DNA of 64,000 nucleotides from Irineochytrium annulatum (Eukaryota > Chytridiomycota > Chytridiomycetes > Chytridiales > Chytridiaceae). A program made the translations under genes and the position numbers. Every line of letters begins with the position of its first letter. Positions within the stretch are counted from its first letter, which is position 1. The DNA is taken from contig JADGJL010000012.1 of NCBI GenBank assembly GCA_027600665.1, positions 62,001 through 126,000 on the forward strand, in the 5' to 3' direction. This document shows, one piece after another, positions 9,836-40,035 of this stretch. A model generated the notes under the pieces. That model saw only the letters and a list, made by a program, of their open reading frames with translations, ran no database searches and was not told the DNA's origin.

Positions 9836-9839
9836 ATGA

Positions 9840-10955: not shown

Positions 10956-11338
10956 TAGCTCACCTCTCTTTTGTCCGTGATCAGCTGCATGTATTTTATC
11001 TATATCTATGGGTAGATTCCATTTGTTCCGAAAACGCTAAACAGCAGAACAACAGCAGGATTGTTGTCTGCTCGCACAACTTGGAGAATTTCAGGATCTG
11101 AAGATGTATGCAATTGTATAATAAATTACATTTTTACCAGTCTAACCATCATTAATCGATAACTTAGAATTGTATCTATCAGTCGTATTATAAGAACGCT
11201 CCGATTATAACGAAGCGCCGGGAATGACAATACAAGTGTAACGCTTACATTTTTGTGCAACAACCTGATAAACTATAGGTTTTCACCCGATAAATTATAG
11301 GTCGAGCTCAGAAGTAATCCACTAACAGGCAAGAGAAT
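10956..11338. other. Intergenic region with long 5' leader of the regulator-transporter operon
   Basis: No gene is seen in these 383 bases. The regulated promoter lies at 11235-11301, which leaves a leader of about 275 bases before the first regulator gene. On the minus strand the leader contains an imperfect hairpin (11042-11072, AGCAGA.CAACA / TGTTG..TCTGCT) followed by a short T-rich segment. It could act as an attenuator or simply stabilise the message. Confidence 0.5.
11235..11301 (-). promoter_or_regulatory. Box promoter 1 (regulator-kinase-transporter operon)
   Basis: On the minus strand: distal box CCTATAATTTATCGGG (11286-11301), proximal box CCTATAGTTTATCAGG (11264-11279), -35 TTGTTG (11258-11263) touching the proximal box, a 17-base spacer containing the cre-like half TGTAAGCG, and -10 TACACT (11235-11240). 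The two boxes are direct repeats 22 bases apart, about two helix turns. This fits an AraC-type activator dimer contacting RNA polymerase. The same arrangement is present at 15225 and 39968. Confidence 0.75.
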
Positions 11339-12178
11339 TTATTCTCCGCGCACAATACGGAATCCTTGATCAGGCCCAAAACCATTTGCATCAAATTTGC
11401 CTCGGAATGCTATTTCATTGTTATTGACACCGCCCATCCAGCCTCCGCCTTTCACAACTCGCCAAGTTTGATTGGGTCCCTCCGGATCGCTGTACCACTC
11501 CCAGCACCATTCTCTCACATTCCCAGACATATCATAGATTCCTAACTCATTCGCCTTCTGAGTTCCGACTTTTTTGGTTTGGTTACGATTACTCTCAATA
11601 GCGGGCCAGCTCCAATCACCTGTCAGAATATTTTCGCCGGCATTTATCCAGTACCAAGCAACTTCATCCGGATTATTACTTCCGCTGTATGTGTAATCTA
11701 AGCTCTTTTGGCCTCCGCTTGCAGCGTACTCCCATTCTGCTTCTGTAGGTAAACGGTAACCGTTGGCACCTTCGTTGATCGTTACATTCCATTTGATATT
11801 GTCGTTTTCATTGTGATTATTCGTATCCAGATTGTCCTTGTCTATATTGTAATAAGGTTTCAGGTTTTCTTTTATACTTTTTTGATTACAGTATTCGACT
11901 GCGTCATACCAGCTGACCATTTCAACTGGCAGATCATCTCCCTTGAAGCCAGACGGGTTTTCCCCCATAATTTCCATCCATTCTTTTTGAGTCACTTCAT
12001 ATTTGCCAATATAAAAGGAGTCCAGCGTTTCATTTTTATTAGTAAAACTCGACTTACTGCTCTTGAAAGCCCCTCCTTCGACGAAAACCATGTCATCGTT
12101 TAATTGAGAATTACCGGCTGAACAAGCACTCAGACTAACAACCATGGCAATTAAAGTTAACCATACTAGCTTCCTCAT
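11339..12178 (-). CDS. SUMF1/formylglycine-generating-enzyme-like lipoprotein without catalytic cysteines
   Basis: The 279-residue protein has a lipoprotein signal (lipobox LSAC, Cys19) and one full FGE-sulfatase (SUMF1) fold domain. Its motifs include YEVTQKEWMEIMGENPSGF, RLPTEAEWEYAASGG, MSGNVREWCWEW and GFRIVR. In true formylglycine-generating enzymes two cysteines in the C-terminal part of the fold carry out catalysis. Here the corresponding stretch reads GGGWMGGVNNNEIAFRG and has none, so sulfatase activation is not expected. It may bind a carbohydrate or a protein at the cell surface. It is the last gene of the xylanase operon, 134 bases after GH11. AAAGGAG precedes the start. Confidence 0.85.
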   Translation of the reverse strand: MRKLVWLTLIAMVVSLSACSAGNSQLNDDMVFVEGGAFKSSKSSFTNKNETLDSFYIGKYEVTQKEWMEIMGENPSGFKGDDLPVEMVSWYDAVEYCNQKSIKENLKPYYNIDKDNLDTNNHNENDNIKWNVTINEGANGYRLPTEAEWEYAASGGQKSLDYTYSGSNNPDEVAWYWINAGENILTGDWSWPAIESNRNQTKKVGTQKANELGIYDMSGNVREWCWEWYSDPEGPNQTWRVVKGGGWMGGVNNNEIAFRGKFDANGFGPDQGFRIVRGE

Positions 12179-12312
12179 TCAATTATTCTCCTTTGCTAAG
12201 CTTGAATCCGGCAACGTCGAGGTCCGTTAATCTGCTGAATAACGGTTCCTCAACGCTTCCGGAAAATTGAAATCAAATGCAAGTGCAGACGTTGAATTAC
12301 ATTACATCATTT

Positions 12313-12948
12313 TTACCAAACCGTTACGTTTGCACTTCCGCTGCTTTGATAACCCTCTGTAGCCATTACCTGATAGGACCAACTATTTCCAAGGTACATC
12401 CCTTTGCTCGCCCACGCATTCACATGATTGCTGAAAGTAATGGTAGAATTGACACCAGTCGGTCTCTTGGACTGTCTAACACTCCAATACTGAGGGAAAG
12501 TCTGCGTACCATCAATGGAAGGTGCATTGTATCTCATCGTTGTATAGATGTCATATGTGCCACCATCACTGTTCACCGTGCCCTTATACGTTCCGGTCGG
12601 ACGATACGTTCCCCAGCTATCCACCACGTAATATTCAATTAAAGCGTTTCTAGTCCATCCATAGAAGGTGAGATAGCCATTACCTGAAGGAGCGAACACA
12701 CCGGCATTGTAATTGACTACCCGATTAGGTGTGCCATATGTCCACCCTTTCCCGACAACAAAGTTCCCGGTATTTTGCCAATTCACGCTGTAATTCCCGC
12801 CAGATCCATTCACGGCGTTGACCGTTCCTCCACCATCTGTCCAATTTTGCCAATAATCTGTTGCAGCACTAGATGTTGCTGCGAATACACCAAAACTCAT
12901 GGAAGCTGCAAGAACAACAGTCATTAATTTTTTACCGAATTTGAACAT
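12313..12948 (-). CDS. xynA: Endo-1,4-beta-xylanase, GH11, secreted
   Basis: The 211-residue protein has a cleavable signal peptide (about 1-28, ending near ATSSAA) and the complete GH11 jelly-roll. The catalytic pair is visible: nucleophile E105 in [12 protein letters not shown] and acid/base E198 in [10 protein letters not shown]. The thumb loop contains [17 protein letters not shown]. It cuts the xylan backbone outside the cell. Length and motifs closely follow the small Bacillus xylanase A type, with no extra binding module. The start has AGGAGGT upstream. It lies between the CE1-type esterase gene (73-base gap) and the SUMF1-like lipoprotein gene, in an operon with a regulated promoter at 15225. 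Confidence 0.97.
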
Positions 12949-13021
12949 AAAATGATACCTCCTGATATTTTAATAGATTTGGTTGACACTACAATCCGAT
13001 ATGAATGATCTTCAGCAGATT

Positions 13022-13822
<801 letters not shown>

Positions 13823-13835
13823 CTATCCGTCTTAA

Positions 13836-15119
13836 TTAATCCACATAGCCAAAACCCAGAATGGTGAAGCATTTATGTTCATGACCTTCTGCCATGTCGA
13901 TCTCGATGGAGTGCTCCCTAACTTGTTCTTCGTCAAGCAGAAGTAATGCATGGCAATGGGTCCAGTTGATCTTACGCGGATCGACTTTTTGGACCAATAC
14001 CCCATCTACCCTGATATCTGCAGTTCCGAATTCGTCACTACCCGAATCCTTAAAGATCAGAATGAGGCGTTTGCACTGCAAGCTTATCTTGAAGCTGCTC
14101 TGAGACCCTTTTCCCTCTCCCGAACGCATCCAGTTGTTGGGGAACTGGGGTGTACCATAGTCATGAGCATCCATCTCAGCCATCTGCAGATCCGTGTCCG
14201 TTTTGCAAAAAGAGCCTTCATCGATAAGGGCGATGTTATTGCCGTTTTTCCGATCCAACAGCTTCACATGAACAAAATCATCTCCAATTAGCGGAGCTTT
14301 TTTATTATCATGATCTTGCTCATCCCATTCAGAATGATTCGTCACATCGAACAAATATTCCAAACAATCGGCCATAATCCGATGCCCTGTATTAGTCGGA
14401 TGATATATATCATGGAAAAATTGCTTTTTGGAAATAATGTTACCCTCATCTATTGTCATGTTGAACTGATCTACGACAGCATCTTTCACACTTACCATTG
14501 GCAGATCATAATGCCAGCCAACCGGGGCGAGACGATCCTGCAGATTCCAGTCATTTTCAAATACACTGAATAACAAGATGACTGCTGGCTTGTTATCGGC
14601 AGCAAGTACTTTGAGCACCAGACTCTCGTAACAATTCCCTTGAGTTTCATCATCTGCGTCATTAACTGCGAATTCGATTATGACAATATCCGGCTGAACC
14701 GTACCTCCACGTAACACATCACGATCATAACGTACAATCCCCAATTCCGAAGGAGTTCCACCTACGCCTGCTTTAATCAGATGAATCGGACTATCTTTTG
14801 AAAGCGCAAACATAAACTTGAACGATTCATACGACCGATAAGCGTAACTTTGAAGATGAATAGGTATTGCACCAGCACCTTGGGTAATGGAGCCTCCAAT
14901 ATAAGCAATAACAACAGGTTCGCCGTTTTTTGCCTTCTCAATGGCTCGTTTTAATCTGACATTAATCCCTTTGTTCAGAAGAGACCGGCCAATCATGTCG
15001 CGATATCCTTGTGATTCAAAGTCAATTGTGGGCTTGACTGACGAAGCTGTCACTCCCACTGGATCACGCGGTGCAGTGAATTCCGTGTTTTCACCTGCAT
15101 CTTCTGAATCCCGGAGCAT
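13836..15119 (-). CDS. SGNH-family carbohydrate esterase with C-terminal beta-sandwich region
   Basis: The 427-residue protein has an SGNH hydrolase domain (about 60-260). Block I is GGSITQGAGA with Ser77, block II is the GVGG Gly, block III Asn153 (FAVND), and block V is D237/H240 in DIYHPTNTGHR. The C-terminal 160 residues look like a beta-sandwich extension ending ILGFGYVD, probably a sugar-binding or stabilising module. There is no signal peptide. It is the first gene of the xylan operon, so deacetylation of imported acetyl-xylo-oligosaccharides is the best guess. The ATG at 15119 has only a weak GGTG-type upstream signal. The first 30 residues are not conserved-looking, and a later start is possible. 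Confidence 0.85.
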   Translation of the reverse strand: MLRDSEDAGENTEFTAPRDPVGVTASSVKPTIDFESQGYRDMIGRSLLNKGINVRLKRAIEKAKNGEPVVIAYIGGSITQGAGAIPIHLQSYAYRSYESFKFMFALSKDSPIHLIKAGVGGTPSELGIVRYDRDVLRGGTVQPDIVIIEFAVNDADDETQGNCYESLVLKVLAADNKPAVILLFSVFENDWNLQDRLAPVGWHYDLPMVSVKDAVVDQFNMTIDEGNIISKKQFFHDIYHPTNTGHRIMADCLEYLFDVTNHSEWDEQDHDNKKAPLIGDDFVHVKLLDRKNGNNIALIDEGSFCKTDTDLQMAEMDAHDYGTPQFPNNWMRSGEGKGSQSSFKISLQCKRLILIFKDSGSDEFGTADIRVDGVLVQKVDPRKINWTHCHALLLLDEEQVREHSIEIDMAEGHEHKCFTILGFGYVD

Positions 15120-15224
15120 AAATCACCATCACATCCTTTCGGCTAGATTCTGATCATCCCTCAAACCAAATTTAAAGGATCACAGCTTGTATTATGATTA
15201 GATCAGGTGTGATCCTTCTCCCAA

Positions 15225-15269
15225 AGTGTATCGCTTACATAATTTTACAACAACCTGACAAAGTATAGG
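15225..15269 (-). promoter_or_regulatory. Box promoter 2 (xylan esterase-xylanase operon)
   Basis: On the minus strand: box CCTATACTTTGTCAGG (15254-15269) touches -35 TTGTTG (15248-15253), then a 17-base spacer with TGTAAGCG, then -10 TACACT (15225-15230). The geometry matches the promoters at 11235 and 39968 to the base, except for an 18-base spacer in the latter. A second box 22 bases upstream is only weakly recognisable here. The leader before the SGNH gene is about 100 bases. Confidence 0.75.
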
Positions 15270-15323
15270 ATTTCAACCACTATATCATTTTAAGTTAAGT
15301 ACAATAACATGCGGATCAGAACA

Positions 15324-15377
15324 CCTATAATTTTTCATGTAAACGCTTTAATTTGTATACTATTTCCATGTTATAAT
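15324..15377 (+). promoter_or_regulatory. GH8 promoter region with degenerate box and cre site
   Basis: On the plus strand, CCTATAATTTTTCATG (15324-15339) matches the regulon box at 13 of 16 positions. It is overlapped by a cre-type sequence, TGTAAACGCTTTAA (15338-15351, 13 of 14 to the CcpA consensus). Possible -10 elements are TATACT (15356-15361) and TATAAT (15372-15377). The start site cannot be fixed. It faces the divergent box promoter 2. Confidence 0.55.
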
Positions 15378-15410
15378 TTTGAAAAACCGCATTGATGAAG
15401 GAGGAAACGC

Positions 15411-16802: not shown

Positions 16803-16852
16803 CCAATATAGGCAACAACATCATCATTTTTCTCTCTGTACGACATGCCTCT

Positions 16853-18745: not shown

Positions 18746-18762
18746 GCAATGGGACACCTCAA

Positions 18763-26891: not shown

Positions 26892-26979
26892 TATAATTCC
26901 TCCTCTTCTGATGTAATGCCTTGCTATACTGCGAAGTAACGCTGTCATCGCATTCCTAAACCAGCATATCGCTCAGGTC

Positions 26980-27041
26980 GGAGCCCGCTCCCGCAACCCA
27001 TTCCATACCAGCAAGGGAATTCTTCGGAGCGAAGGGTTGCG
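26980..27041 (-). promoter_or_regulatory. Predicted structured RNA (three-way junction) between permease and GH5 genes
   Basis: An 8-bp outer helix (CGCAACCC 26992-26999 with GGGTTGCG 27034-27041) encloses two small hairpins: ATTCC/GGAAT (27000-27004, 27016-27020) and TTCG/CGAA (27023-27026, 27030-27033). The result is a compact three-way junction. A GGAG-CCCG-CTCC hairpin (26980-26991) follows directly. There is no T-tract. It may be an mRNA processing or stability element before the GH5 message. Confidence 0.45.
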
Positions 27042-27166
27042 ATTCTGAAGTGAACAGTTTTGCAAATGATCGCAGCAAGCCCCCTTTTTACAAGTGGAAT
27101 GTTCCATGGAATCCCTCCTTCCTTATCCAGGCTGATCGCCGCGCCAAAGGTACAGGTGAATTGAAC

Positions 27167-28114: not shown

Positions 28115-28131
28115 GTAGAGCACCCCCCTTT

Positions 28132-28977
28132 CTAATCTTGATAGAAGACACGCTTCGAGAAGATGATGGATACGATAACGAGAATGATGGCAATGGCCAG
28201 GAAGTAGACCCATGCCATGGCGGAGCTTAAACCAAAGTCGAACTTGACGAAGCCGGTATCCCGGATCAGTTCTGTCATGGCGTTATTGGCAAACGAATCG
28301 ATTATTGTATAGATCGCATTGACAAAAATCAGCGGGCTGACCATCGGAAATGTAATTTTCCAGAATGCTTCATAACCCGTAGCTCCTTCCATCTTCGAAG
28401 CCTCATACAGCTGAGGGGAGATTGTCTGGATGCCTGCCAAAAAGATCAAAATCTGTACACCGGATTGACTGACGATCTGATAGATCCGATCTACGGCGCT
28501 GCTCAGGTACGTAACGATCCAGTCGCTTACTCCGGCATTAACCATCAGATTTTCGAGTTCAAATGTCCCGAGTGAACTGCCGCCTGTACTGCTCTGGTTC
28601 ACCGCTTCAATCAGACTGGTGCTCTCCAGCGTCATAATTACTCCCGATGCCAGAATAACGGGCAGGAAGAAGATCGACCGGGCAACAGCCCGGCCCCTGA
28701 ACTTCTGATTCAGGATGACAGCGAGGAACAGACTGAATATAACGATTAGAGGTACGTTGATGAGTACGTCTGTGATTGCCTCGATTAACGCACGGTTGAA
28801 GCTCGTATTGACGGTTAGCGCCTGAATGTAATTAGCGACACCGGTGAACTGAATCGCTATGCCTTCCGCGTTGGCCTGAATTGTACTCATGCTGTATCGC
28901 AGAGAGGCTAACAGCGGAATGAAGAAAAATAACACAAAACCTATGAGCCAGGGGAGCACGTAAATTACGCCCCACAT
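28132..28977 (-). CDS. Carbohydrate ABC transporter permease, MalF type (second pair of large operon)
   Basis: At least 281 residues with six membrane segments and the EAA loop EASKMEGATGYEAFWKITFP. The ATG at 28977 has no good ribosome-binding site, and the usual charged N terminus of MalF-type permeases is missing. The frame stays open upstream to a CTG at 29034 that overlaps the stop codon of the DUF5696 gene (C-TGA) and has GGTGGTGAG before it. This would add KTLLKWKWGSRTYAQQKA, a typical N terminus. The coordinates given are the conservative ones. The pair of this and the next gene has a large extracellular loop (about residues 110-150). Confidence 0.88.
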   Translation of the reverse strand: MWGVIYVLPWLIGFVLFFFIPLLASLRYSMSTIQANAEGIAIQFTGVANYIQALTVNTSFNRALIEAITDVLINVPLIVIFSLFLAVILNQKFRGRAVARSIFFLPVILASGVIMTLESTSLIEAVNQSSTGGSSLGTFELENLMVNAGVSDWIVTYLSSAVDRIYQIVSQSGVQILIFLAGIQTISPQLYEASKMEGATGYEAFWKITFPMVSPLIFVNAIYTIIDSFANNAMTELIRDTGFVKFDFGLSSAMAWVYFLAIAIILVIVSIIFSKRVFYQD

Positions 28978-29030
28978 GGCTTTCTGCTGAGCATACGTAC
29001 GACTTCCCCATTTCCATTTCAGGAGCGTCT

Positions 29031-31610
29031 TCAGAGCTGCTCACCACCAGTCACATAACTTTGGGCTTCCACTGTAACGTTGTCAACATCTACAGGGAAG
29101 TCGTTATAATTGACGATTACGAATCCGCCGCCTTCATACATGGTCCGGAACACGCCTTCTTCAATGGATTCATGAGACATCATGGAACGTCCCGTAAATG
29201 ACTGGTTTACGTCGTTGACCTCATTGTAGATGTCAGCAGCCAGATCCATCCATTGTTCGTAATTCGCCGCATAGAGTTGATCATAATCTGTTTCTTTCAC
29301 AACATGGTTTGGTGCATTGAACCAGGCAAAGTAAGGGCTCGCTCCATATTCAATCAACTTCAATACATACTGTCTTGCGTCCGTATAAGTAGAAAGATTG
29401 TATGGCATGCCTGTATAACTAATGCTGCCGTGTACAACGAGCTGATAGAATGGAATCTCTTCATCCTCCAGCTTGAAACGGCTGCTATTCATTGGAGCAT
29501 CTGTCAACCCGGTTACATATGGCAGTGCGTAAGCGTTTCCGCCTTCCGCAACGACAGGGCCTACCTGCTGTTTGATCTGTTCAAGTGCTTTCTTGACAGA
29601 GCCCAATGCTTCCGTTCGATCCACCAACTTTTTCGGATTCATGTCGCTGTTCAGCTGAGCGGCCAGGTCATTCAGACTCAACGAAAGTTCATCTTTTTGA
29701 AGAGACTTGAGTTCATCCAGCATCTCTGCCGTCACGTTCTCCAGCAAGTTGGGCGACAGCACATAGGAAGGTGAACGATCCCTGTCACGACGCTGTATGG
29801 CCTGGTTCATCGGATACATAACCGCCGGTTCCTGGGTTAAGGTTCGGGAAGCTTCTTTAGACGGTTTAAATCCTTTTTTGGATAACACATTTATCAGAGC
29901 AATATCCGGATAAAAGCCGATGCCTGCTTCTTTGGTGAATGCACTGAATTCCCGCAATCCCTTTTTGCCACCCACGGCACCGTCCACGTGAATGGAATCG
30001 GGCATCCTATGATAAAGCCCTCCGTTAAACCACCCGGCATAGCGAACCTGTATATTGGATACCTTCTTCTCCTTCAAGGTGGTGAGAATGTTTTTGGCTT
30101 CATCAAACGTCGTCAGAGCCTCCGTTGAATCGTACGGTATGCCCAACATATGTTGGCTTGTTGTCATGGCACCGAACAGTTGCAGATAAAACGGAACATC
30201 ATTCTGATCCTTACTGGCGCTCAGCTCGGGAAGTCCGCCATTTTGCATCAGATAATCCCGATAAAGAGAGGCAAGCCCGGAGTACGAGGCCTTATCCGCC
30301 CCTACAAAAGCGTATCGAACGGCGAAGTCGGACACGGTCGGATTCTTCTGAAATTTCGGAAGTGTACGAACCATATCGCTTGCCTGAAGTGTCACATCGC
30401 TCTTGTTCACAACATAGAAGCTTGGATATACGTTGTTATAACTGTTTAGCTTGCCGCTGATATCGGCATTCACAACGGCAACGGCATCCCCTTCCTCAAC
30501 AATACCCAGGAACGCCCCCTCTTTCCGAATAAGTCCAAACACCGGCAATCGGGCTTTGGCTTCATTCGAACTTGCTTCCCGCAGTTTCATCGTCATATCC
30601 GGTCCGTAAATATCTTGTTGATAGGCAGGATACTGCAACTTCCCATTATTAAAATGGATAAGAGCCCCCGATCCGTCCGGCACCAGCATGGAGCCTTCTT
30701 CATTTAATCCTCCGGCACCAAAATACTCCAGTATGGATATGTTATTGATCGGATATTCCTCCGGAAAATGAATGCCTGATGAAGGAACACGAACTAACAG
30801 ATCCTCTCCATCCAGCTCATATTCCATCGTGATCATGAACAGCCGCGGTCCGCTACGTTCCTGTTCAATGCCGAACTCGGCATGATCCTGAGCCAGGTCC
30901 TCTGGTGTGTAACCGGCTGTGTCAAAAGCTTTCAATGCTCGGGACAACTGAAGTCCCTGCATCGCCTTATCAATCCGGACGTAAGTACCTTCTTCTTTGT
31001 CCTCTGCATATCCGACCTTCAAGGCCCGCTGCCCGGTCTTATCCAACTGTGCAAGCAGCTTTTGCTCAAAACGCTCTTTGCTGATCTTCATCGGCAAATC
31101 TTCAATGGATCGCTCGGTGCTGCCAAACTGGTAATTCACCCGTACGCCGTTTGGCAGTGACTCGAAGCTGATCTGCTTGTGTGCGGCACTGTCCGTGAAA
31201 GAATTCACCGTGCTGCTCTGACCCAGACTATTGAAGAAGCTGAGCTTGGTTTGTGAAGACAACAGGTCTTTGTTTATCCCTGCGGCAATTCCATCCTGTT
31301 CACGATCTTCAGGATTGCTGCGCCAGATCTGCCCGCTCTGCATGTGAATCACTGCAATCTCGGCAGTCTCTTCGTGAATGAACAGCTGAAGCTGATCATT
31401 CTGTGCAATGCCAATCATGCCTGGAAGGCGGGTATTACTGAAAGATGATTTCAGTTTTTCTCCGGGAGGCAGGGAGGGAACGTCCGTTTGATCTGCGGCA
31501 GATACCGCCTGGTTGGTCAGTGGTGCTGACGAGAACTGACATCCGCTGAGCAGCAGACTGCCCGCGAGCAGCATTCCTGTTATTTTTTTGGCTACGGCAT
31601 ATTTCATCAC
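29031..31610 (-). CDS. DUF5696 lipoprotein, possible surface glycosidase-like protein
   Basis: The 859-residue protein has a lipoprotein signal peptide (LLLSGC, Cys24). I recognise it as the DUF5696 type found in Paenibacillus sugar loci; the function is not established. An N-terminal region (about 50-380) looks rich in beta-strands. The later part (about 480-760) resembles an (alpha/beta) barrel in pattern, with acidic residues at strand ends: D569 (GFYPDIALINV), D648 (LSLNDLAAQL) and E689 (VAEGGNAYAL). The C terminus is beta-rich (GGFVIVNYND). That layout is reminiscent of retaining glycosidases, but this is inference. The GTG/ATG start follows GGGAGGAGGAG. It lies between the Yip1 gene and a permease pair in the large operon. 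Confidence 0.82.
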   Translation of the reverse strand: MMKYAVAKKITGMLLAGSLLLSGCQFSSAPLTNQAVSAADQTDVPSLPPGEKLKSSFSNTRLPGMIGIAQNDQLQLFIHEETAEIAVIHMQSGQIWRSNPEDREQDGIAAGINKDLLSSQTKLSFFNSLGQSSTVNSFTDSAAHKQISFESLPNGVRVNYQFGSTERSIEDLPMKISKERFEQKLLAQLDKTGQRALKVGYAEDKEEGTYVRIDKAMQGLQLSRALKAFDTAGYTPEDLAQDHAEFGIEQERSGPRLFMITMEYELDGEDLLVRVPSSGIHFPEEYPINNISILEYFGAGGLNEEGSMLVPDGSGALIHFNNGKLQYPAYQQDIYGPDMTMKLREASSNEAKARLPVFGLIRKEGAFLGIVEEGDAVAVVNADISGKLNSYNNVYPSFYVVNKSDVTLQASDMVRTLPKFQKNPTVSDFAVRYAFVGADKASYSGLASLYRDYLMQNGGLPELSASKDQNDVPFYLQLFGAMTTSQHMLGIPYDSTEALTTFDEAKNILTTLKEKKVSNIQVRYAGWFNGGLYHRMPDSIHVDGAVGGKKGLREFSAFTKEAGIGFYPDIALINVLSKKGFKPSKEASRTLTQEPAVMYPMNQAIQRRDRDRSPSYVLSPNLLENVTAEMLDELKSLQKDELSLSLNDLAAQLNSDMNPKKLVDRTEALGSVKKALEQIKQQVGPVVAEGGNAYALPYVTGLTDAPMNSSRFKLEDEEIPFYQLVVHGSISYTGMPYNLSTYTDARQYVLKLIEYGASPYFAWFNAPNHVVKETDYDQLYAANYEQWMDLAADIYNEVNDVNQSFTGRSMMSHESIEEGVFRTMYEGGGFVIVNYNDFPVDVDNVTVEAQSYVTGGEQL

Positions 31611-31624
31611 ATTCTCCTCCTCCC

Positions 31625-32260
31625 TTAGCCCCGAAGCACTAATTCCTGATAGATGGTTACGACAAACGATACAATCTGCTGTACAAGGCTAAAGAACAAG
31701 AGGCACAGAAATGCCATAAAGGCCATAGCTACAAGTGTCAATAGCATCGTGAGTATCGTTTTGGCTGGTGTGTACTGATGAACCGTCATATTTCCCACAA
31801 ATAACAGGTACACCGTCCAGGCGACGGCGAGTGCATTGGAGAAATAATAAAAGGCAGTTTCTTGTGCAGAGATCACAAGACTCAGCCAGATCCAAGGAAA
31901 ATGGATTAGGAAAAGAGGCACCAGTGCAAAACAGGTTGACATAAAAATTTCAGAAAACTTGCCTTCCCCGTCCATCAAGGTGGTTAACGACCAGTTAGCC
32001 ACACACCAGAAGAGGACCGGCACGATCACATATACCATTTCGAGCAAACTGTTCAGGTATTTGGGATTACTGAGATTAATCAGAAAACCGCTGTATTGGG
32101 CATGTAAAATTTTGGTGATGACCAGCAGTACCAGAATCATGAAAGCAATCAACAGTGAGTTCCTCTGGTTGCGCTCATATTTTAATTCCCAGTATCCATC
32201 AAACGGATGGAAGATCAGATGCAGCGGGTACTGATATAACTGTTTACTTGATGCCTGCAT
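31625..32260 (-). CDS. Yip1-family integral membrane protein
   Basis: The ATG at 32260 is chosen because AAAGGAGG lies seven bases before it; the frame extends further but without a signal. The protein of about 211 residues has a short cytoplasmic start (YPLHLIFHPFDGYWELKYE) followed by five hydrophobic segments, the pattern of the Yip1 domain. The function of bacterial Yip1 proteins is unknown. It overlaps the end of the NHL gene by 17 bases and precedes the DUF5696 gene by 14 bases, so the three are tightly coupled. It may be a membrane anchor or chaperone for the extracytoplasmic proteins encoded around it. Confidence 0.87.
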   Translation of the reverse strand: MQASSKQLYQYPLHLIFHPFDGYWELKYERNQRNSLLIAFMILVLLVITKILHAQYSGFLINLSNPKYLNSLLEMVYVIVPVLFWCVANWSLTTLMDGEGKFSEIFMSTCFALVPLFLIHFPWIWLSLVISAQETAFYYFSNALAVAWTVYLLFVGNMTVHQYTPAKTILTMLLTLVAMAFMAFLCLLFFSLVQQIVSFVVTIYQELVLRG

Positions 32261-33707
32261 TCGTTGTCCTCCTTTTCTGCCTGCGAACGATGATGACGGT
32301 AACAAACGCAGCGACAGCCAAGAATAAACCGGACATCATCCATGAAAAATGCTCACGCATCAGCTCTTTGCGATACAAAAGAAAAGCTTTGGAATAACCT
32401 TTAGGTTCCATACTGCGCTTAAAGTATTTCGCAGATTCGCCGTATTCCTTCTGACGAAGCAGTGCTTTGCCGATTCCCGCATAAGCATATTCCAGATTGG
32501 CGTTCATCTCGGCAACTTTAGCAAACAGTACACTGGACTGCTCCTCGTCACCGTTATAATAACTGCGAACTGCTTCATGGAGCGTGCGTCCATATTCAGT
32601 TGTCTGAAAGACGGTGATTTCGCCAAGCGCTTTATCCAGAACCAACATCCGGTCTCCCGCACGTTCCAGCGCAACAGGTGTATTAAACTGGCCAAGGCGG
32701 TTTCCGATGCCGCCAAAAATATGGAGCAGATACCCGTCTCCATTGTAGGTGAAGATTCGGCCCTTGCTGGAATCCAGTACGGAATACATGTCACTGTCCC
32801 CCACGTCCACATCAATCAGACGGGATGGCCCCGCTTCCTGGGTATACACCATATCACCTTGCGGGGTCTGATAGCCTTCTCTGCGCAAAATGTCTGTGCC
32901 CTGTGCATTCAGCTTCTTGACCGGATCTTTGCCCCGATCCCCGCTAGTCGCGTAGATGAAGCCTTCTTCGTCCATATCCAGATTGGTAAATTCCGTCGGA
33001 GTGAACATAACCATCTGACTGCGCTGCTCACGTGTGGCGAAGCGTTTCCATAGATACTCCACCGGGTCTACCTGAACTCTGTTTGCTCCAATAAACGATG
33101 AGAACGTACCGTCGGCGCTGAACTCCATGAATCCATCAAATACGCCTTCGGCCATGACGTAGATACGTTCCCCCTTGTCCATAACAACACGCATAGGTTT
33201 GAATTGAAAATCCGCTTTTAACAGGTCCGATTTGGGCTCTGCGACAATCTTGACCAGCGTGCCTTTTTCATCCAAATGTACGACCCGATGATTATCCGAA
33301 TCGGCGACCAGCAGATGGCCTTGATCGCTAACGTACAACCCCTGTGGATTTTTAAAATGATCTTCCTTGCCTTCCTGCTTAAATGAATCAATCGTCCGTA
33401 CCAGCTTGAGGTTGCGATCCATCTCTATAATGCGGCCATTGCCCGAATCAAGCACAAAGACGTGCTGATTGGCGGTAACATGCATGTCGCTCGGCTCTTT
33501 CATAGGAATCGTGTTCAGCTTCTTGCCGGTGATAATGGTTGTTGCCTCATATGCCGCTGGTGCCGGAACTGCGTCACCCCAGAAGGAGTAATGATACGCA
33601 TCCGTTTTACCGTCTGCACTCACATATGATGCCTCTTGAACGAACAACAGGAGGCAGATCATGCCCATGATGATCGATTTGCGTTTTTTCCATGTGCTTC
33701 TCCGCAC
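32244..33707 (-). CDS. Extracytoplasmic NHL-repeat propeller protein with C-terminal membrane anchor
   Basis: The 487-residue protein begins at a GTG after AAAGGAGG and has a signal peptide (about 1-31, VSADG). NHL-type beta-propeller repeats follow (about 70-390), with repeated phrases of the type PSDMHVTANQHVFVLDSGNGR and PQGLYVSDQGHLLVADSDNHR. Next is a helical TPR-like stretch (about 390-445, LEYAYAGIGKALLRQKEYGESAKYF). One membrane helix (about 453-473) and a basic tail RRQKRR close it. It is probably a surface scaffold that binds a protein or glycan. It follows the first permease pair by 15 bases and overlaps the Yip1 gene. Confidence 0.87.
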   Translation of the reverse strand: MRRSTWKKRKSIIMGMICLLLFVQEASYVSADGKTDAYHYSFWGDAVPAPAAYEATTIITGKKLNTIPMKEPSDMHVTANQHVFVLDSGNGRIIEMDRNLKLVRTIDSFKQEGKEDHFKNPQGLYVSDQGHLLVADSDNHRVVHLDEKGTLVKIVAEPKSDLLKADFQFKPMRVVMDKGERIYVMAEGVFDGFMEFSADGTFSSFIGANRVQVDPVEYLWKRFATREQRSQMVMFTPTEFTNLDMDEEGFIYATSGDRGKDPVKKLNAQGTDILRREGYQTPQGDMVYTQEAGPSRLIDVDVGDSDMYSVLDSSKGRIFTYNGDGYLLHIFGGIGNRLGQFNTPVALERAGDRMLVLDKALGEITVFQTTEYGRTLHEAVRSYYNGDEEQSSVLFAKVAEMNANLEYAYAGIGKALLRQKEYGESAKYFKRSMEPKGYSKAFLLYRKELMREHFSWMMSGLFLAVAAFVTVIIVRRQKRRTTNAGIK

Positions 33708-33722
33708 CTCGCTGCCTCCTTT

Positions 33723-34604
33723 CTACTCTTTCATGCCTGAAGTGGCCATCGTTTGCATGACACTGCTCTGGGAGATGATAAACAGCGTGATCGGTACAAT
33801 CATCAGCAGCAAGGCCACAGCCGCACCAACACCTGCACGAGCAATCCCTCCCTGTACAATCTGACTGAGCGCATAATGCAGCGTTTTCAGATTTTCACTG
33901 TAAATGAAGCTCCCGCCGTCCGTCCCCCATAATGCAGGGAACTGCAGGATCATGAGCGTGAGCCATGCCGGCTTTACATTCGGCATCACAATGCTCCAAA
34001 ATATGCGGTATTCATTGGCACCGTCGATTTTGGCTGCTTCCAGCAACGCATCGGGAATCTGCTCCATGAACTGTTTCATCAGGAACAGTCCCAGGGAGAA
34101 AGCAAGCGATGGCACGATAATGGAAGCGTGTGTGTTAATCCATCCTAGCCAAGACATGACCATGTAGTTTGGAATCGCCGTGACATGCGGTGAGAACATC
34201 AGAGACAGAATGACAATCGTGAACAACACTTTCGAACCTGGAAAACGATATTTCGCCAGCGGATAAGCCGCGGCGGATGCAAGAAGGATGTGTCCTGCCG
34301 TCCCCAGGATTGTAATGAGCAGGGTATTAGCAATATAACGGGATAACGGCACCCATGAATTGCCCATAAGGTTGATCAGATCGGCAAAATTCTCTGTTGT
34401 CGGGTTATTCACCCAGAATCGCGGCGGAAAAATAAACAGCTCATCCAGCGGTTTGAATGCATTGTTGACAGCATAGATCAGCGGAAGCACCATAAATGAT
34501 CCGAACACGGCCAGCAGTGCGAATAACATCAGGCTGACGGTAAATGACCGATTCAGCCTTTTTGGCATGCCAAACACGGCACGTACTTTGCTGGTCATTG
34601 TCAT
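33723..34604 (-). CDS. Carbohydrate ABC transporter permease, MalG type (first pair of large operon)
   Basis: A 293-residue membrane protein with six segments and the EAA loop EAAKIDGANEYRIFWSIVMP. The ATG overlaps the stop codon of the upstream permease (ATGA), which shows translational coupling. It has a short Arg-rich cytoplasmic N terminus before the first segment. Together with its partner and the CBM-fused binding protein it forms the first transporter of the operon. Confidence 0.93.
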   Translation of the reverse strand: MTMTSKVRAVFGMPKRLNRSFTVSLMLFALLAVFGSFMVLPLIYAVNNAFKPLDELFIFPPRFWVNNPTTENFADLINLMGNSWVPLSRYIANTLLITILGTAGHILLASAAAYPLAKYRFPGSKVLFTIVILSLMFSPHVTAIPNYMVMSWLGWINTHASIIVPSLAFSLGLFLMKQFMEQIPDALLEAAKIDGANEYRIFWSIVMPNVKPAWLTLMILQFPALWGTDGGSFIYSENLKTLHYALSQIVQGGIARAGVGAAVALLLMIVPITLFIISQSSVMQTMATSGMKE

Positions 34605-35557
34605 TCACCTATCTTTCTAAGCATTTTTTGCGTCAAAACGTTCGTACCAAGCATCAACGCAAACAGCACGGTTGCAATGGCAGAAGCGTATCCCATCTCA
34701 AAACGGATTGTACCGAAGTCCATCAGATGTGTGACGACGGTGTGAGCTGCATAGTTGACACTTGGGAAACCGGCCAATGCAATCGATATCTCGGCCACTG
34801 CGAATGAAGCCGTAATCTGCATCACCGCACCAAACATCAGTTGCGGTCTCATCGAAGGCAGGGTGATGTACCAGAGTTCCTGCCAGCGATTCTTGATCCC
34901 GTCCACGGTGCCTGCTTCAACCAGAGAACGATCGATGGTCTGAAGTCCAGCAATAAAGGCCAGGAAGCTGGTTCCGAGGCTGAGCCACAGCTGTACAATA
35001 ATGACAATCGCGAGCACGTACTTCTCATCTGCAAGCCATTGGATCGGCTCCAGTGTGACACCAAGGCGCATCAGGAAGCCATTCATATACCCGTAGCTGT
35101 CACCTGAGAAGATGATCAGCCAGATGAAGAAGACATTTCCCGATATGGAGGGGGCATAGAACACCAGCGTCATGACCGCTCGAATTTTGGGAGATAGCTC
35201 GTTGATGATCCATGCAAACAAAAAGCAGGCGATATAACTGAGCGGACCCGTGATTACGGCAAAAAGCAGTGTGTTTTTGAGCGCAATCAGGAATACGTCG
35301 TCATTCAGGAAAAGCCGGGAATAATTTTGCCACCCGACAAATCGCGGCAGCTCCAGCATGTTGAAGTGAAAAAAGCTGAGCCCCAGTGAAATGCCGACCG
35401 GGATGACAGTAAACATGAAAAAAATCAGCATAAACGGTGCCATCAACACATAATAATGCCTGCTGAGATACAGATCCCTTCTCAAAAGGGACCACCAGCC
35501 GACCTGGCGGGTATGGACGGCAGGAGCGGCGGCTGTCTTGGTTGTTTTAGCTTGCAA
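34601..35557 (-). CDS. Carbohydrate ABC transporter permease, MalF type (first pair of large operon)
   Basis: The 318-residue protein starts at TTG 35557 with AAAGGGAGGG upstream. It has six predicted membrane segments. The EAA loop is slightly unusual, EAGTVDGIKNRWQELWYITLP, with one extra residue compared with the canonical spacing. It overlaps its partner by 4 bases and follows the CBM-fused binding-protein gene by 19 bases. No ATPase gene accompanies it. Confidence 0.92.
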   Translation of the reverse strand: MQAKTTKTAAAPAVHTRQVGWWSLLRRDLYLSRHYYVLMAPFMLIFFMFTVIPVGISLGLSFFHFNMLELPRFVGWQNYSRLFLNDDVFLIALKNTLLFAVITGPLSYIACFLFAWIINELSPKIRAVMTLVFYAPSISGNVFFIWLIIFSGDSYGYMNGFLMRLGVTLEPIQWLADEKYVLAIVIIVQLWLSLGTSFLAFIAGLQTIDRSLVEAGTVDGIKNRWQELWYITLPSMRPQLMFGAVMQITASFAVAEISIALAGFPSVNYAAHTVVTHLMDFGTIRFEMGYASAIATVLFALMLGTNVLTQKMLRKIGE

Positions 35558-35576
35558 CCGTTACCCTCCCTTTCCT

Positions 35577-38474
35577 CTATTTCAGATTAAATTCCTTACG
35601 CTTCAACTCAATTTCATCATCAATGTACAGAACATAGTCCGATAAGGCTTCACGCGGATTTTCATTCGCATTGACCACCTTACGGAAAGCGTTATCCAGA
35701 TGCCGTCCCGTGAAATAACCTCCAGGAAGCTGCGGGATCCCCTGTACCCATTTCCATTGCTTCTCCAGATTTTCATAATCCTTGACGGGCCAAGGAAGCT
35801 GTTTCAAAGCTTCAATGTTGGCTGTTGGGTAACGGGCTGCCGCCCCCATCAGACCTTCCATTTCTCGTCCGTATTCAATCTGGGTCTGCTCGTCAGTCCA
35901 CCATTTCATGAACTTCCATGAAGCTTCCTTGTTGCTGGCGTTCTCAAGCATCATTACCGCGCTTGTTGCGCTGGCCACCTCATGCCTGATGGAACCGTCC
36001 GGAAGCTGCGTACCAGGAACAATGGTAAAGTCCCAGAGATTGCGAATTTCCGGAGCCAAAACTGTCAACATGTTATAGGTTGTATAGTCCGCAATTCCAA
36101 TCGGCATCTCACCGGTACGGAAGCGGTTTGGAAAGTCCGCTTTAAGCGGGAATTTATAATTGGTATAGAATTGTGTCCAGCGTTTAAACGCATCCATCGA
36201 AATTTCCGAATCAAGGGCACTCTTCTTCTGATCTTCCGTATAGAAGGTGCCATCATTCTGGTACAGCAGCATCGCAAAAGTCGAGTTCGGCACAAGGTTT
36301 GCGTTGTTCAGTGTATCCTCGATGGGCAGATAAAACTCCATATTATGCTTTTGTAGCACAGCAATGGCGTTATACACGTCCTGCCACGTTTTCGGCGGTT
36401 CCAATCCCAATTCGTTCAGGATATCTTTGCGGTAAAAGAGCATCGGAAAATGTTGCTGTTCCGGGAGGGCATACACACCGTCGTTATACCGGTATGGTGT
36501 CAACCCGCTTTCACGGAACCGACCCGCAATTTCCTCGAAGTCGGGGAATTTGCTCAAATCCGCTGCCGCACTTCTCATCGCATAGTTTACAGGGATGTCC
36601 TCACCCATTTGCATGGCAATGTCGGGTCCTTCACCTGCAAGGGTTGCGGGAAGCAATATGTTGGGCGGCACAAGACGCAGCTGCACGGATACATCCGTAT
36701 CCGGAGTAAACGAATCATCGATCATGCCTTTCAATACCTGAGCCTGATCCCGTCCAGTCGTGATCCATACAGTAATGGAATCCTTTTTTTGTTCCACGTT
36801 ACCGATGCTGTCGTAATCTTCGGTATACGAAGCCACGTATGCACCCAGCTCATGTTTCACCTGCTGAATGGCCGTCGCTTCCGCATCTGGCAAGGCTTCA
36901 CCCGGCGGAGACACGACGAGGTAATCCAGAGTGATCGGCTGTTCACGTACTGACAATATCCAGGTACCCAAGCCACCTACGTTAATTTTGAACGTATCCA
37001 GTCGTTTAGGAACGGTCTCCGGCTTGGCCGCCATATCTTCAAGCTGCATGACCATGGCGTGAAGCACGGCAACTTTATCACTTTGCTCACCCGTTGCCTT
37101 TTCCAGATAATCCGCTACAGAACGGAGCGTGTCTGCCTGTCGTTCAAAGACTTCCGTCATCTCCGGGATGCGTTGTTCCAACTGATAATCCCGAAGCGGA
37201 TCGGGGCTGTTGGAGGTGATCATCAGGATTTTGCGATACATCTCATTCAATTCCAGCACGCTGGATTCCACGGTACGAAGCAGAGGAGCGATGTCGCCTA
37301 GCGTTACCGTCATTCGAATCCGGTGTTTCCCTTTATCCAGATGAAACTGGTAAGGCTGATTTTCTGCCGCCCCCAGCACCTGAGTTTGCCAGGAAGGGCT
37401 GTAGTTGAAACGAATGCGTTTCATTTCTTTAAACGGAACTTCCCCGTTGATCGTCAGACTGCGGGTTGCGTAAATACCGCGCAATTGATCCTGTTTTACC
37501 TTTAACGCGATTTGATACAATCCGTCTTCAGGCACGTCGATTTCCCATTCGATCCATTCACCCGGCAGCTTCCAGTTGATGCCCCCGATCGCATTCATGC
37601 GAATTTTGGACACATCATAAGGTTCTAGCGATGGGCTCGAACGATCCGAGATGGGTGCCAGTGTAGGTGAAGACTTGCTGACTGCTTGTTCCCCTTGTAC
37701 TTTCAGCATGACTGGAGCCGCTGGTTTCAGCCCCTGTGAGGCATAAGTTGCCTCAAGCTCTGCATAGGACGGGATCTCCCCTTCCTGATACAGCTCAATA
37801 TAATCAATCGCCATACTTTCTCTTAATGAAGTGAGCGATAACTGCGGGTTTCCTTTTTCAAAATAAAACTGAAAGGGCTCCTCGAAATAGCCTCCGCTAT
37901 CCTTGAAGGAAGTCAACTGCCACTCGGGCTGTTCCACTTGTCTTGGCCTGAGATCGTTATCCCGATCGTCACGACGAACGTTATCCTCGCGATTCCCCCA
38001 CACCCTGTCAAACAAGAGAACATCGGCCCCTCTAAAAGGAACCTCCCCATTCACCTCGAGTCTGCGTTCAATACCCGAGCTTTTACCCTCTACAGGGTAA
38101 TAGTGAATGCGAATATTGTACAAACCGCTCATTTGAACGGGAACATCCCAACGAATGGTTCCAGTTTCCGGCGTAATTACAGCGCTCCCATCCAGTCCGG
38201 CATAACCTTGCACGACCTCGAATTCTCCGTCAGTTGCCTGAACATAAGATTCGCCTTCAATGCGTATTGTTTTCTCGGGTTTAGCCGAATTGGCATGAGT
38301 AGTCAGATAATGGTCATAACTGAATGAATCCTCGGTTCCCGATACTGCGTCAAAGTCCTCAAGCGCATGTACCGTCCCCGGATAACGATCCCGCGATGGA
38401 TATAGCGTCCATATGGAGAGTACCAGGGCCAGGACAAGCACCAAGATTAGTCCCTTTTTCTTACGTGACCGCAT
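35577..38474 (-). CDS. Membrane-anchored solute-binding protein fused to two carbohydrate-binding-like modules
   Basis: The 965-residue protein has a basic start (RSRKKK) and one hydrophobic segment (8-24) without lipobox cysteine, so it is likely anchored by an uncleaved signal segment. Two galactose-binding-like beta-sandwich modules follow (about 65-240 and 285-410). Both contain the phrase RRLEVNGEVPFR or RSLTINGEVPFK, typical of CBM35/CBM-like domains. A helical linker spans about 410-490. The C-terminal half (about 550-960) is a family 1 extracellular solute-binding fold (PDIAMQMGEDIPVNYA, GVYALPEQQHFPMLFYRKDIL). This fusion could hold the transporter on a polysaccharide or catch long oligomers. 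It is the second gene of the large operon, 105 bases after the first binding-protein gene. Confidence 0.87.
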   Translation of the reverse strand: MRSRKKKGLILVLVLALVLSIWTLYPSRDRYPGTVHALEDFDAVSGTEDSFSYDHYLTTHANSAKPEKTIRIEGESYVQATDGEFEVVQGYAGLDGSAVITPETGTIRWDVPVQMSGLYNIRIHYYPVEGKSSGIERRLEVNGEVPFRGADVLLFDRVWGNREDNVRRDDRDNDLRPRQVEQPEWQLTSFKDSGGYFEEPFQFYFEKGNPQLSLTSLRESMAIDYIELYQEGEIPSYAELEATYASQGLKPAAPVMLKVQGEQAVSKSSPTLAPISDRSSPSLEPYDVSKIRMNAIGGINWKLPGEWIEWEIDVPEDGLYQIALKVKQDQLRGIYATRSLTINGEVPFKEMKRIRFNYSPSWQTQVLGAAENQPYQFHLDKGKHRIRMTVTLGDIAPLLRTVESSVLELNEMYRKILMITSNSPDPLRDYQLEQRIPEMTEVFERQADTLRSVADYLEKATGEQSDKVAVLHAMVMQLEDMAAKPETVPKRLDTFKINVGGLGTWILSVREQPITLDYLVVSPPGEALPDAEATAIQQVKHELGAYVASYTEDYDSIGNVEQKKDSITVWITTGRDQAQVLKGMIDDSFTPDTDVSVQLRLVPPNILLPATLAGEGPDIAMQMGEDIPVNYAMRSAAADLSKFPDFEEIAGRFRESGLTPYRYNDGVYALPEQQHFPMLFYRKDILNELGLEPPKTWQDVYNAIAVLQKHNMEFYLPIEDTLNNANLVPNSTFAMLLYQNDGTFYTEDQKKSALDSEISMDAFKRWTQFYTNYKFPLKADFPNRFRTGEMPIGIADYTTYNMLTVLAPEIRNLWDFTIVPGTQLPDGSIRHEVASATSAVMMLENASNKEASWKFMKWWTDEQTQIEYGREMEGLMGAAARYPTANIEALKQLPWPVKDYENLEKQWKWVQGIPQLPGGYFTGRHLDNAFRKVVNANENPREALSDYVLYIDDEIELKRKEFNLK

Positions 38475-38530
38475 GTTCGAATGTATCCCCTTTCCTCTAA
38501 GCGTTGCGAGAACTGGACGATTGACTAACC

Positions 38531-38566
38531 CGGACAGACCGCACCATCACTGGTGCGTTCTGCCCG
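38531..38566 (-). promoter_or_regulatory. Intercistronic stem-loop after the first binding-protein gene
   Basis: 38531-38545 and 38552-38566 pair at 13 of 15 positions around a 6-base loop (core CCGCACC / GGTGCG). It has no T-tract. It lies between the abundant binding lipoprotein message and the rest of the operon and probably protects the upstream message or causes partial termination. Confidence 0.6.
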
Positions 38567-38579
38567 TGTGTCATGATGC

Positions 38580-39935
38580 TTATTTGTATACCTCATCAAT
38601 CGCAGCCTGGAAAGGTGCCTTGTATTTCTCAATCAGCGTAGATACAGATACTCCTTCTTTGAGCTCTCCATCAAAGTCCCAGAAAGGCAAGGACGGGAAT
38701 GTGTTATGGTCGAGAACCAGCATGCCTTCTGCAACCTCTCTGGCGTTGTTGATATCTGCTTCATCGGTCAGATGTGTCTCCAGTGTGGATTGGCCCGGAT
38801 ACTCATAGATCGAATCGATCTCATTAATTTTCTCCCAGATGTACATCAGTTGTTCCGGATTCTCTACTGCTTTAGGAATCGTTATAGCCTGGTAACGGGA
38901 CTCTCCAGAGTGATACGCTGATGCACTTGGACCTTTAGGGAATGGTACAAAACCGATATCGTAATCCTTCATGTCTGTCATAATGCCTTCAACCTCGTAC
39001 ATGGCACCTGAATACATCAACGTATTGCCTTGACGGAAGAACGTGGACGGCTCAGTCCAGTCGCCGCCTTCAGAAGCTCTGCCGACCTTTTCCGTAGCCA
39101 GTTTGGACAGGAAATTCAGCGCTTCCTTCGTTTTGGGATCTTCCAGGTTCTGCTTATCCTCTAGGGTCAGGGAAGCTTCATTGGAATACAGAATCGGTTC
39201 AAGCAATCCCGTCTGAGCGAGTCCCCAAGTGTCCAGCTTGCCATCGTTGTTGCGATCCTTGTTCGCTTGTTTGGCAACGCTGAGGAATGTATCCCAGTTC
39301 CATTCATCAGCATCCACATATTCCTGTAATGGCTTCAAGCCCAGCTCCTGCATGAGGGTACGATTATAGAAAATTCCGTTGATAAAAGAAGACTGGTCCT
39401 CGGTAAAGCCGTAACCTTTGCCTTCATATTGCATATATTCCTTTGTTGTTTTCTGATTGAATACTTTGTCGTTTTTAATATAATCATCCACTGGCCACAA
39501 GAGATCCTGTTTGGTCAATGCGGGAATGGCATAGTTTTTGCCCAATCTCACCAAATCACCAAGTGGTTCCCCTGCCATCAGCGAAGCAACTACCTTCTCC
39601 TGATATTCGCCGAAATCAATGGAAACGTATTCAATATTAAAGTTGTGTTTTTTCTTCAGCGCTTCGAGATTCTCAAGGCGTTGAATGTTGTCCGGGTTGT
39701 TCCCCTGTATTTCCATGTCCCACCAAGCAACAACTTTGATCGTTCTGCCGCCCATGTCAAAGTCCATTTCTGGCGTAGAGTTTTCATTCTTTGGCTCGGT
39801 TTCTACGGGTGTTTGTTCCTCCTGTGGTGTTGTCTTTTCCGGCTCGGGTTGAGCGGTAGGTGCAGAACTGCATGCAGCAATCACCAACAAAACCGCGAAT
39901 ACCAGGCTCAGTAGCATGAACTTGTTTTTTCTCAT
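38580..39935 (-). CDS. Sugar-binding lipoprotein, family 1, first gene of the large operon
   Basis: The 451-residue extracellular solute-binding protein has a lipoprotein signal (VIAACS, Cys22) and a Pro/Glu/Thr-rich linker (about 25-55). The classical MalE-like bilobal fold follows, with a sugar-binding phrase NRDNNGKLDTWGLAQTG-like in the N lobe (written KDRNNDGKLDTWGL in the sequence). The start has GGGGGG upstream and lies 33 bases after the -10 element of box promoter 3. It probably serves the permease pair at 33723-35557 and perhaps also the second pair. Its position right behind the regulated promoter and before a hairpin predicts the highest expression in the operon. Confidence 0.92.
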   Translation of the reverse strand: MRKNKFMLLSLVFAVLLVIAACSSAPTAQPEPEKTTPQEEQTPVETEPKNENSTPEMDFDMGGRTIKVVAWWDMEIQGNNPDNIQRLENLEALKKKHNFNIEYVSIDFGEYQEKVVASLMAGEPLGDLVRLGKNYAIPALTKQDLLWPVDDYIKNDKVFNQKTTKEYMQYEGKGYGFTEDQSSFINGIFYNRTLMQELGLKPLQEYVDADEWNWDTFLSVAKQANKDRNNDGKLDTWGLAQTGLLEPILYSNEASLTLEDKQNLEDPKTKEALNFLSKLATEKVGRASEGGDWTEPSTFFRQGNTLMYSGAMYEVEGIMTDMKDYDIGFVPFPKGPSASAYHSGESRYQAITIPKAVENPEQLMYIWEKINEIDSIYEYPGQSTLETHLTDEADINNAREVAEGMLVLDHNTFPSLPFWDFDGELKEGVSVSTLIEKYKAPFQAAIDEVYK

Positions 39936-39967
39936 CGTCTTCCCCCCTGATTGTCTTTTGCTCTCAC

Positions 39968-40035
39968 AGTGTATCGCCCAAATGAAAGCGCAAACAACCT
40001 GCCAAAATACAGGTGTTTACCCCGGCTGAATATAG
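39968..40035 (-). promoter_or_regulatory. Box promoter 3 (large transporter operon)
   Basis: On the minus strand: a distal box-like CTATATTCAGCCGGG (near 40021-40035), proximal box CCTGTATTTTGGCAGG (39998-40013) touching -35 TTGTTT (39992-39997), an 18-base spacer, and -10 TACACT (39968-39973). The ATG of the first gene follows 33 bases later. The layout is the same as at 11235 and 15225. Confidence 0.75.
39983..39996. promoter_or_regulatory. cre site in the large-operon promoter
   Basis: TGAAAGCGCAAACA matches the CcpA consensus TGWAANCGNTNWCA at 13 of 14 positions. It overlaps the -35 and spacer of box promoter 3, so CcpA binding would block initiation when preferred sugars are present. 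Confidence 0.7.

Follow-up and report, generated by a model that had tools for sequence, protein, structure and literature searches.

A shared box and promoter design before xylan genes of Paenibacillus, with an aspartate-less AraC-type regulator as its possible reader

Three promoters of one design

The 64,000-nucleotide stretch analysed here (the window; contig C126 of a 26.9-Mb assembly in 1082 contigs that is filed under the chytrid Irineochytrium annulatum) carries on its minus strand three promoters, sites 1, 2 and 3, that share a 16-bp box abutting the -35 hexamer, a spacer of 17, 17 and 18 bases, respectively, and the -10 sequence TACACT. A sequence-only reading of this DNA had pointed to these promoters, and we confirm the observation: they lie where they had been placed, and their common design can be read directly from the letters. 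The assembly is too large for one Paenibacillus and is mixed or contaminated. Judged by its sequence, the window is DNA of that genus, from the P. xylanexedens/amylolyticus group; its regulator YesN-a is 100% identical to that of genome G056 and 80–94% identical to those of nine loci that go under the names of P. xylanexedens, P. amylolyticus and related species.

At site 1, a distal box (CCTATAATTTATCGGG, 11286..11301) and a proximal box that abuts the -35 hexamer (CCTATAGTTTATCAGG, 11264..11279, read directly) are followed by the core promoter TTGTTG-17-TACACT (11235..11263, with TTGTTG at 11258-11263 and TACACT at 11235-11240). The two boxes repeat with a period of 22 bp, the distal one is kept in orthologs, and the identity of the -35 hexamer is 1.00 among nine sequences including the window. 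Site 2 has the box CCTATACTTTGTCAGG (15254..15269, also read directly) before TTGTTG-17-TACACT (15225..15253, TACACT at 15225-15230) and shares with site 1 the stretch TGTAAGCGNTACACTT behind the box. Site 3 is composed of a distal box (CTATATTCAGCCGGGG, 40020..40035; several relatives are closer to CTATAATTTGACMGG), a proximal box (CCTGTATTTTGGCAGG, 39998..40013, read directly and from an alignment) and TTGTTT-18-TACACT (39968..39997, TACACT at 39968-39973). Of the second boxes that had been proposed about 22 bases upstream at sites 1 and 3, the one at site 1 is exact and the one at site 3 is recovered only with a one-base gap, the CTATA halves lying 23 bp apart and the GG halves 22 bp. In the alignment of site 3, which covers 30 of the 50 genomes carrying the adjacent regulator RR260, the letters TCTATA and GGGTAAA of the distal repeat both persist in 27 or more of the 30 orthologs; the tandem is present in these 30 genomes, in G018, G020 and G029, and, as CTATAATCTGCCAGG, in G039. 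By eye, a clear distal box was not found at site 2 or at the GH30, GH10 or GH11 promoters described below.

The 21-mer CCTRTANTTTRTCAGGTTGTT, which joins the box to TTGTT, matches the window at up to three mismatches at exactly sites 1-3 (shuffle mean 0.01, n = 100). A sequence resembling a catabolite-responsive element (cre), TGAAAGCGCAAACA, overlaps the core promoter of site 3 with a single mismatch to the cre consensus, a score equalled by 0.2% of 500 shuffles. A structured leader before the YesN-a gene was considered and rejected: there was no Rfam match in the window, and folding was no better than that of shuffles.

The genes behind all three sites are on the minus strand. Site 1 is followed by YesN-a (9840..10955), a protein of 371 aa with a receiver and an AraC-type domain, the sensor kinase HK-a (8054..9943), YesN-b (6499..8040; 513 aa), whose receiver is closest, among solved structures, to XynC of Geobacillus stearothermophilus, and a solute-binding protein (4704-6359) with two permeases downstream (2712..6359 together); this binding protein has no Pfam match and is named from its similarity to other binding proteins of the window. 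Behind site 2 lie genes for a GDSL hydrolase, an esterase, a GH11 xylanase and a protein resembling the formylglycine-generating enzyme (11339..15119). The gene for the last of these (11339-12178) also stands behind GH11 wherever a GH11 locus was read, namely in G018, G020, G023, G039, G052 and G061, free-standing GH11 genes included. The transporter train behind site 3 (25188..39935) encodes two solute-binding proteins, four permeases, NHL, Yip1 and DUF5696 proteins and a ricin-B lectin protein, and it is 81–100% identical in G020, G029 and G039. Divergent from site 3, on the plus strand, stands the gene of RR260 (40211..40978), an orphan AraC-type regulator with an aspartate-less receiver; its open reading frame runs from a GTG at 40196, and the ATG at 40211 has, by eye, the better ribosome site. 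Beside RR260 there is a complete two-component system on the minus strand (41090..46269) consisting of YesN-c (41090-42736), its kinase HK-c (42700-44478) and a solute-binding protein (44515-46269).

The box at xylan genes across the genus

A scan of nine relatives with the simple box returned sites 1-3 and, in addition, intergenic sites preceding the genes of a GH30 glucuronoxylanase and of a GH10 xylanase, whose promoters have the same geometry of box, hexamer, 17 bases and -10; the GH30 copy also occurs in the assembly from which the window comes, on contig C192. GH11, GDSL and GH10 proteins were identified by Pfam, and GH30 by its match to the solved structures of Xyn30D and XynC, the Pfam GH30 score alone being below the cut-off. 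For the comparison set of 75 genomes, all of the genus Paenibacillus, the simple box with TTGTT at three mismatches was dropped because of its many matches in coding sequence, and the full geometry was used instead. It gave 220 matches against 26 for the reversed control, and representative matches precede the GDSL-esterase-GH11 operon, GH30, GH10, free-standing GH11 and large CBM-GH10 genes.

All 76 listed matches with at most one mismatch precede xylan genes. Gene coordinates place 25 of them before GH11 via the GDSL-esterase operon, 15 before GH30, 15 before YesN-a and nine directly before GH11; reading of the DNA assigned the remaining 12, seven to a GH10 gene and five to a GDSL gene. This count covers 74 of the 75 genomes and leaves out G002, whose sites were seen in the simple-box scan. 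At two to three mismatches, some matches are coding or stand before unrelated genes. The motif at its strong sites is therefore not equally common before unrelated genes, and the proposal that a single regulon of xylan operons with activator-type geometry may be defined by sequence is supported by these data. Since the strong matches all precede xylan genes, the box is very probably the xylan operator of an AraC-type activator, and the putative regulon extends beyond the window. Our literature search, made mostly without subscription journals, listed no paper that describes the box in its title or in the opening of its abstract.

Site 1 itself looks recent. Its box is present in 18 of the 19 genomes that have YesN-a at 80% identity or more: 15 of these boxes have at most one mismatch, those of G005 and G010 have two, that of G002 was seen in the simple-box scan, and the box is missing in G007. 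In the group with YesN-a of about 60% identity, the gene is preceded by a GH10-type gene and by a promoter of another kind (nine loci displayed, GH10 confirmed by Pfam in three), and no strong box was found within 10 kb in the six loci scored (best score 12.7, at the end of L023).

A further kind of match, class D (CTATAATCTGTCAGGTT...), lies between a GH43-like gene, named so by eye, and variable neighbours; it is conserved and oriented away from the GH43-like gene, and all class D matches listed have at least two mismatches. The class D loci (L109, L110, L111, L112, L113 and L247) have the box-like promoter and a perfect cre (tested in G056), and a conserved stretch of about 150 bases follows the promoter. 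The cre site was also tried as a common feature of the boxed promoters and was rejected, having three mismatches at sites 1 and 2 and at the GH30 promoter, no better than shuffles. It is perfect at the free-standing GH11 promoter tested and at a GH43-linked class D site. Catabolite repression via CcpA is likely at some of the promoters and not a common element.

RR260 and the other regulators near the sites

The activator had been sought in one of the two YesN proteins at 6499-10955, an assignment for which our comparison gives less support. YesN-a orthologs occur in 32 of the 75 genomes (19 at 80% identity or more, 13 at 59–65%), YesN-b at more than 50% identity occurs in the same 32, and the box-bearing genomes G018, G020, G029, G030 and G039 are without them. 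A different regulator of 508 aa, YesN508, is found in 28 other genomes, never together with YesN-a. In the four YesN508 operons read (G020, G029, G039 and G052) it is upstream of the same transporter genes, in three of the four with HK-a-like and YesN-b-like genes in between, and no box precedes the operons of G020, G029 and G039. RR260 is encoded in 50 genomes, in 47 at 61% identity or more and in three at 42%, and it adjoins site 3 in all 30 aligned genomes. G018, G020, G029 and G039, which have the box and lack YesN-a, conserve RR260 and YesN-c, and of the transporter train they conserve the first gene if not more. In the assembly of G004 (L067 and neighbours), the match to each of RR260, YesN-b and YesN-c is split in two, probably by sequencing errors or decay.

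Promoters were also collected with the box ignored in their choice, comprising 56 GH30 promoters (one per genome) and 27 promoters of free-standing GH11 genes. GH30 matches were present in 57 genomes, from which G016, with a partial match, and all second matches were left out; among 62 GH11 genes, 27 were counted as free-standing, since neither coordinates nor clade placed them behind a GDSL gene, and some of their neighbourhoods were read. A GH30 box with at most three mismatches was found in 41 of the 48 genomes with RR260 and in one of the eight without it (Fisher's exact test, p = 1e-4; shuffles average 5.2 mismatches). No such box was seen in the five genomes that have YesN508 and lack RR260 (G021, G064, G065, G066 and G074). 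The presence of the box does not follow the XynC-like regulators, be it YesN-a/b or YesN508, with the exception of G007, which has YesN-a alone. For free-standing GH11 genes, the first impression that their boxes track RR260 came from box-selected matches and was weakened by the unbiased set, in which a box with at most two mismatches precedes 9 of 12 genes in genomes with RR260 and 5 of 15 in genomes without it (p = 0.054).

G007 (Paenibacillus sp. SZ31, L017/L290) lacks sites 1-3, the xylan operon, the transporter train, RR260 and YesN-c as one block and keeps the YesN-a operon without site 1. The absence of the block seems to be the result of one recent deletion, which would make this genome a natural knock-out for the regulon.

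RR260 consists of a receiver (Pfam E value 5e-8) and an AraC-type DNA-binding domain. The receiver is aspartate-less: compared with YesN-a, the phospho-acceptor Asp54 is replaced by His, the second acidic residue by Phe, the Thr by Gly and the Lys by Tyr. Among the best 120 of the 215 homologs found, the phospho-acceptor Asp is kept in six, and the recognition helices FNCAYLGQKFK and DWFYKKF are nearly invariant; by alignment, an Asp is also retained in G044 and G032, whose homologs are those at 42%. An AlphaFold model has a (beta-alpha)5 receiver and a seven-helix AraC domain joined by a flexible linker (predicted local distance difference test, pLDDT, 81; predicted template modelling score, pTM, 0.51), and the best Foldseek matches are DNA-binding domains of the YesN type and receivers, including those of AraT and XynC. 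When RR260-like genes were looked for in the loci of other genera at hand, almost everything found matched other regulators, in their DNA-binding part.

Towards RR260, the intergenic region at site 3 carries a conserved direct repeat of its own (40084..40144, plus strand), with the 12-mers AAAGAAATGCAC and AAAAATATGCAC at a 19-bp distance; these AAANAAATGCAC-like repeats abut the sequence TTGTAT-17-CATAAT, likely the RR260 promoter, and the pair of TGCAC motifs with 19-bp spacing is the only one in the window. The repeat differs from the 16-bp box and looks like an operator of another AraC-type regulator. This arrangement hints at control of RR260 through the repeat by a further regulator, perhaps YesN-c.

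Possible readers of the box and known systems

Taken together, the data can be read as describing the operators of one xylan regulon at sites 1-3, working by class II activation with RR260 as the most likely reader, and to this combination we give close to an even chance. That RR260 is the main reader of the box is a putative assignment drawn from its distribution and its helices, and one that we hold tentatively, at slightly less than even. RR260 is favoured because the GH30 box follows it, because there is next to no variation in its recognition helices and because its gene is divergent from site 3. By analogy with what is known of the AraC family, each 16-bp box would accommodate one AraC-type DNA-binding domain, the two helix-turn-helix units of which would read the CTATA and TCAGG halves that start 10 bp apart; where a distal box is present, at sites 1 and 3, a second monomer might bind there. 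Since the box abuts the -35 hexamer, the bound protein could help RNA polymerase at a weak promoter. With the phospho-acceptor aspartate missing from its receiver, RR260 should work by its abundance or by another signal and not by phosphorylation.

Several observations weigh against this picture. The 16-bp box alone is weakly above chance in the window, with 10 matches against 4.4 expected and 3 of 100 shuffles reaching 10. The genomes are related and the p values carry no tree correction, so that independence is overstated. YesN-c is present in the same 50 genomes as RR260 and in G052, and co-occurrence cannot separate the two proteins; G052, with YesN-c and without RR260, keeps the site-2 box with one core mismatch by hand count. 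The sole GH30 box in a genome without RR260 belongs to G007, which retains its GH30 and GH10 boxes together with YesN-a. Seven of the 48 GH30 promoters in genomes with RR260 have four or more mismatches (G057, G008, G069, G024 and the three with RR260 at 42% identity); in G044 and G032, GH30 is the last in a row of genes headed by GH10 and a box-like site. Finally, at up to three mismatches the free-standing GH11 box is found in 9 of 12 genomes with RR260 and in 14 of 15 without it. That these boxes are kept, in weakened form, where RR260 is absent argues against a simple one-to-one link between RR260 and the box, and another user or preserver of the box may exist.

Behind RR260, our order of candidates runs from YesN-c through an unlinked regulator to YesN-a. 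YesN-c has its phosphorylation site intact, and both its distribution and the box retained in G052 would agree with it being the reader, RR260 only helping or being another target. However, its recognition helices are unlike the type shared by YesN-a, YesN508 and RR260, the different conserved repeat before RR260 could be its target, and the promoter regions of its operon have no box by eye and no high position weight matrix score in the window; we consider this explanation unlikely. Somewhat less likely still is a regulator encoded outside the window that is kept also in genomes lacking RR260. It would account for the box variant CTTTAATTTGCTAGG at GH11 promoters in genomes without RR260, YesN-c, YesN-a and YesN508 (G016, G050 and G063, also G034 and G036), yet this variant is without the CAGG half that the nine free-standing GH11 promoters with at most two mismatches in RR260-bearing genomes have, and the GH30 promoters are boxless in seven of the eight genomes without RR260.

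YesN-a might be the activator that reads the box and might control its own operon through site 1, which precedes its gene; its first helix-turn-helix resembles that of RR260 (NSAYLGQQFK versus NCAYLGQKFK), and it is the only one of the three regulators left in G007 beside the boxes at GH30 and GH10. This is an improbable solution, in view of the absence of YesN-a from 43 of the 75 genomes, many of them box-bearing, of the other promoter and the lack of a strong box in the group of about 60% identity, and of the boxless YesN508 operons that replace YesN-a in G020, G029 and G039. The three sites might also be duplicated copies of one promoter, the box reflecting common descent and no regulation, as the stretch shared by sites 1 and 2 behind the box would allow. 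But the GH30, GH10 and GH11 promoters have the box and the geometry in common and not the spacer or the -10 sequence, and conservation of the GH30 box is linked to RR260, which leaves this explanation a very slight chance.

If RR260 is taken as the reader, a two-step switch can be imagined in which HK-c/YesN-c activates RR260 via the repeat at 40084-40144 and RR260 spreads the signal to the boxed xylan promoters, the same box serving as xylan operator in a far larger group that includes Paenibacillus sp. JDR-2. The extension to a wider group would follow from the helices of RR260, which hardly vary between Paenibacillus, Cohnella, Saccharibacillus and Halalkalibacter, whereas the receiver has drifted, and we regard the whole scheme as rather unlikely. 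The box itself allows a xylan regulon to be defined by sequence alone in a genus that serves for the breakdown of plant biomass, and it names a usable operator. Should RR260 be the reader, the question of how aspartate-less receivers work would become directly testable in a whole family whose DNA-binding helices are fixed and whose receiver is phosphorylation-dead, tied to one nutrient and to targets that can be read from sequence.

Class II activators of the AraC/XylS family occupy about 16–17 bp per monomer, with half sites 10 bp apart and the site touching the -35 hexamer, and their direct repeats are about two helical turns apart. A site of this size abutting or overlapping the -35 is what we find here as a putative operator; direct repeats are clear at sites 1 and 3 and not clear at site 2 or at the GH30, GH10 and GH11 promoters. 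The nearest studied system is XynDC of Geobacillus stearothermophilus, a two-component system that was reportedly described with the xynEFG promoter by Shulami and colleagues in 2007 and whose XynC is said to recognize GAAA-like repeats. In both cases a YesN-type regulator stands beside an operon for an ABC transporter of xylo-oligosaccharides, and it is the YesN-b operon, not the box, that XynDC resembles. The box differs from these reported GAAA-like repeats, covers unlinked GH30, GH10 and GH11 genes as well, and follows RR260 better than it follows the XynC-like genes. A xynDCEFG operon has been assigned in Paenibacillus sp. LS1, the strain behind our locus L016, according to the part of that report consulted (PMC10269863).

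Like the aspartate-less receivers described in the consulted parts of PMC4395418 and PMC12632262, RR260 keeps the predicted receiver fold and has lost active-site residues. The former describes such receivers with OmpR/PhoB and LuxR outputs, and the term AraC yielded no AraC-type case in either main text. The consulted part of a review of hemicellulase regulation makes no mention of Paenibacillus (PMC10766802); for MsmR1 of P. polymyxa, two motifs are mentioned in PMC9722767. The aldouronate utilization regulon of Paenibacillus sp. JDR-2 consists of coordinately regulated, unlinked xylan genes (PMC4765114), for which the consulted part of that paper reports predicted promoters and cre sites and, in contrast to the present case, no activator box. 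JDR-2 has a 44% homolog of RR260 (P0099).

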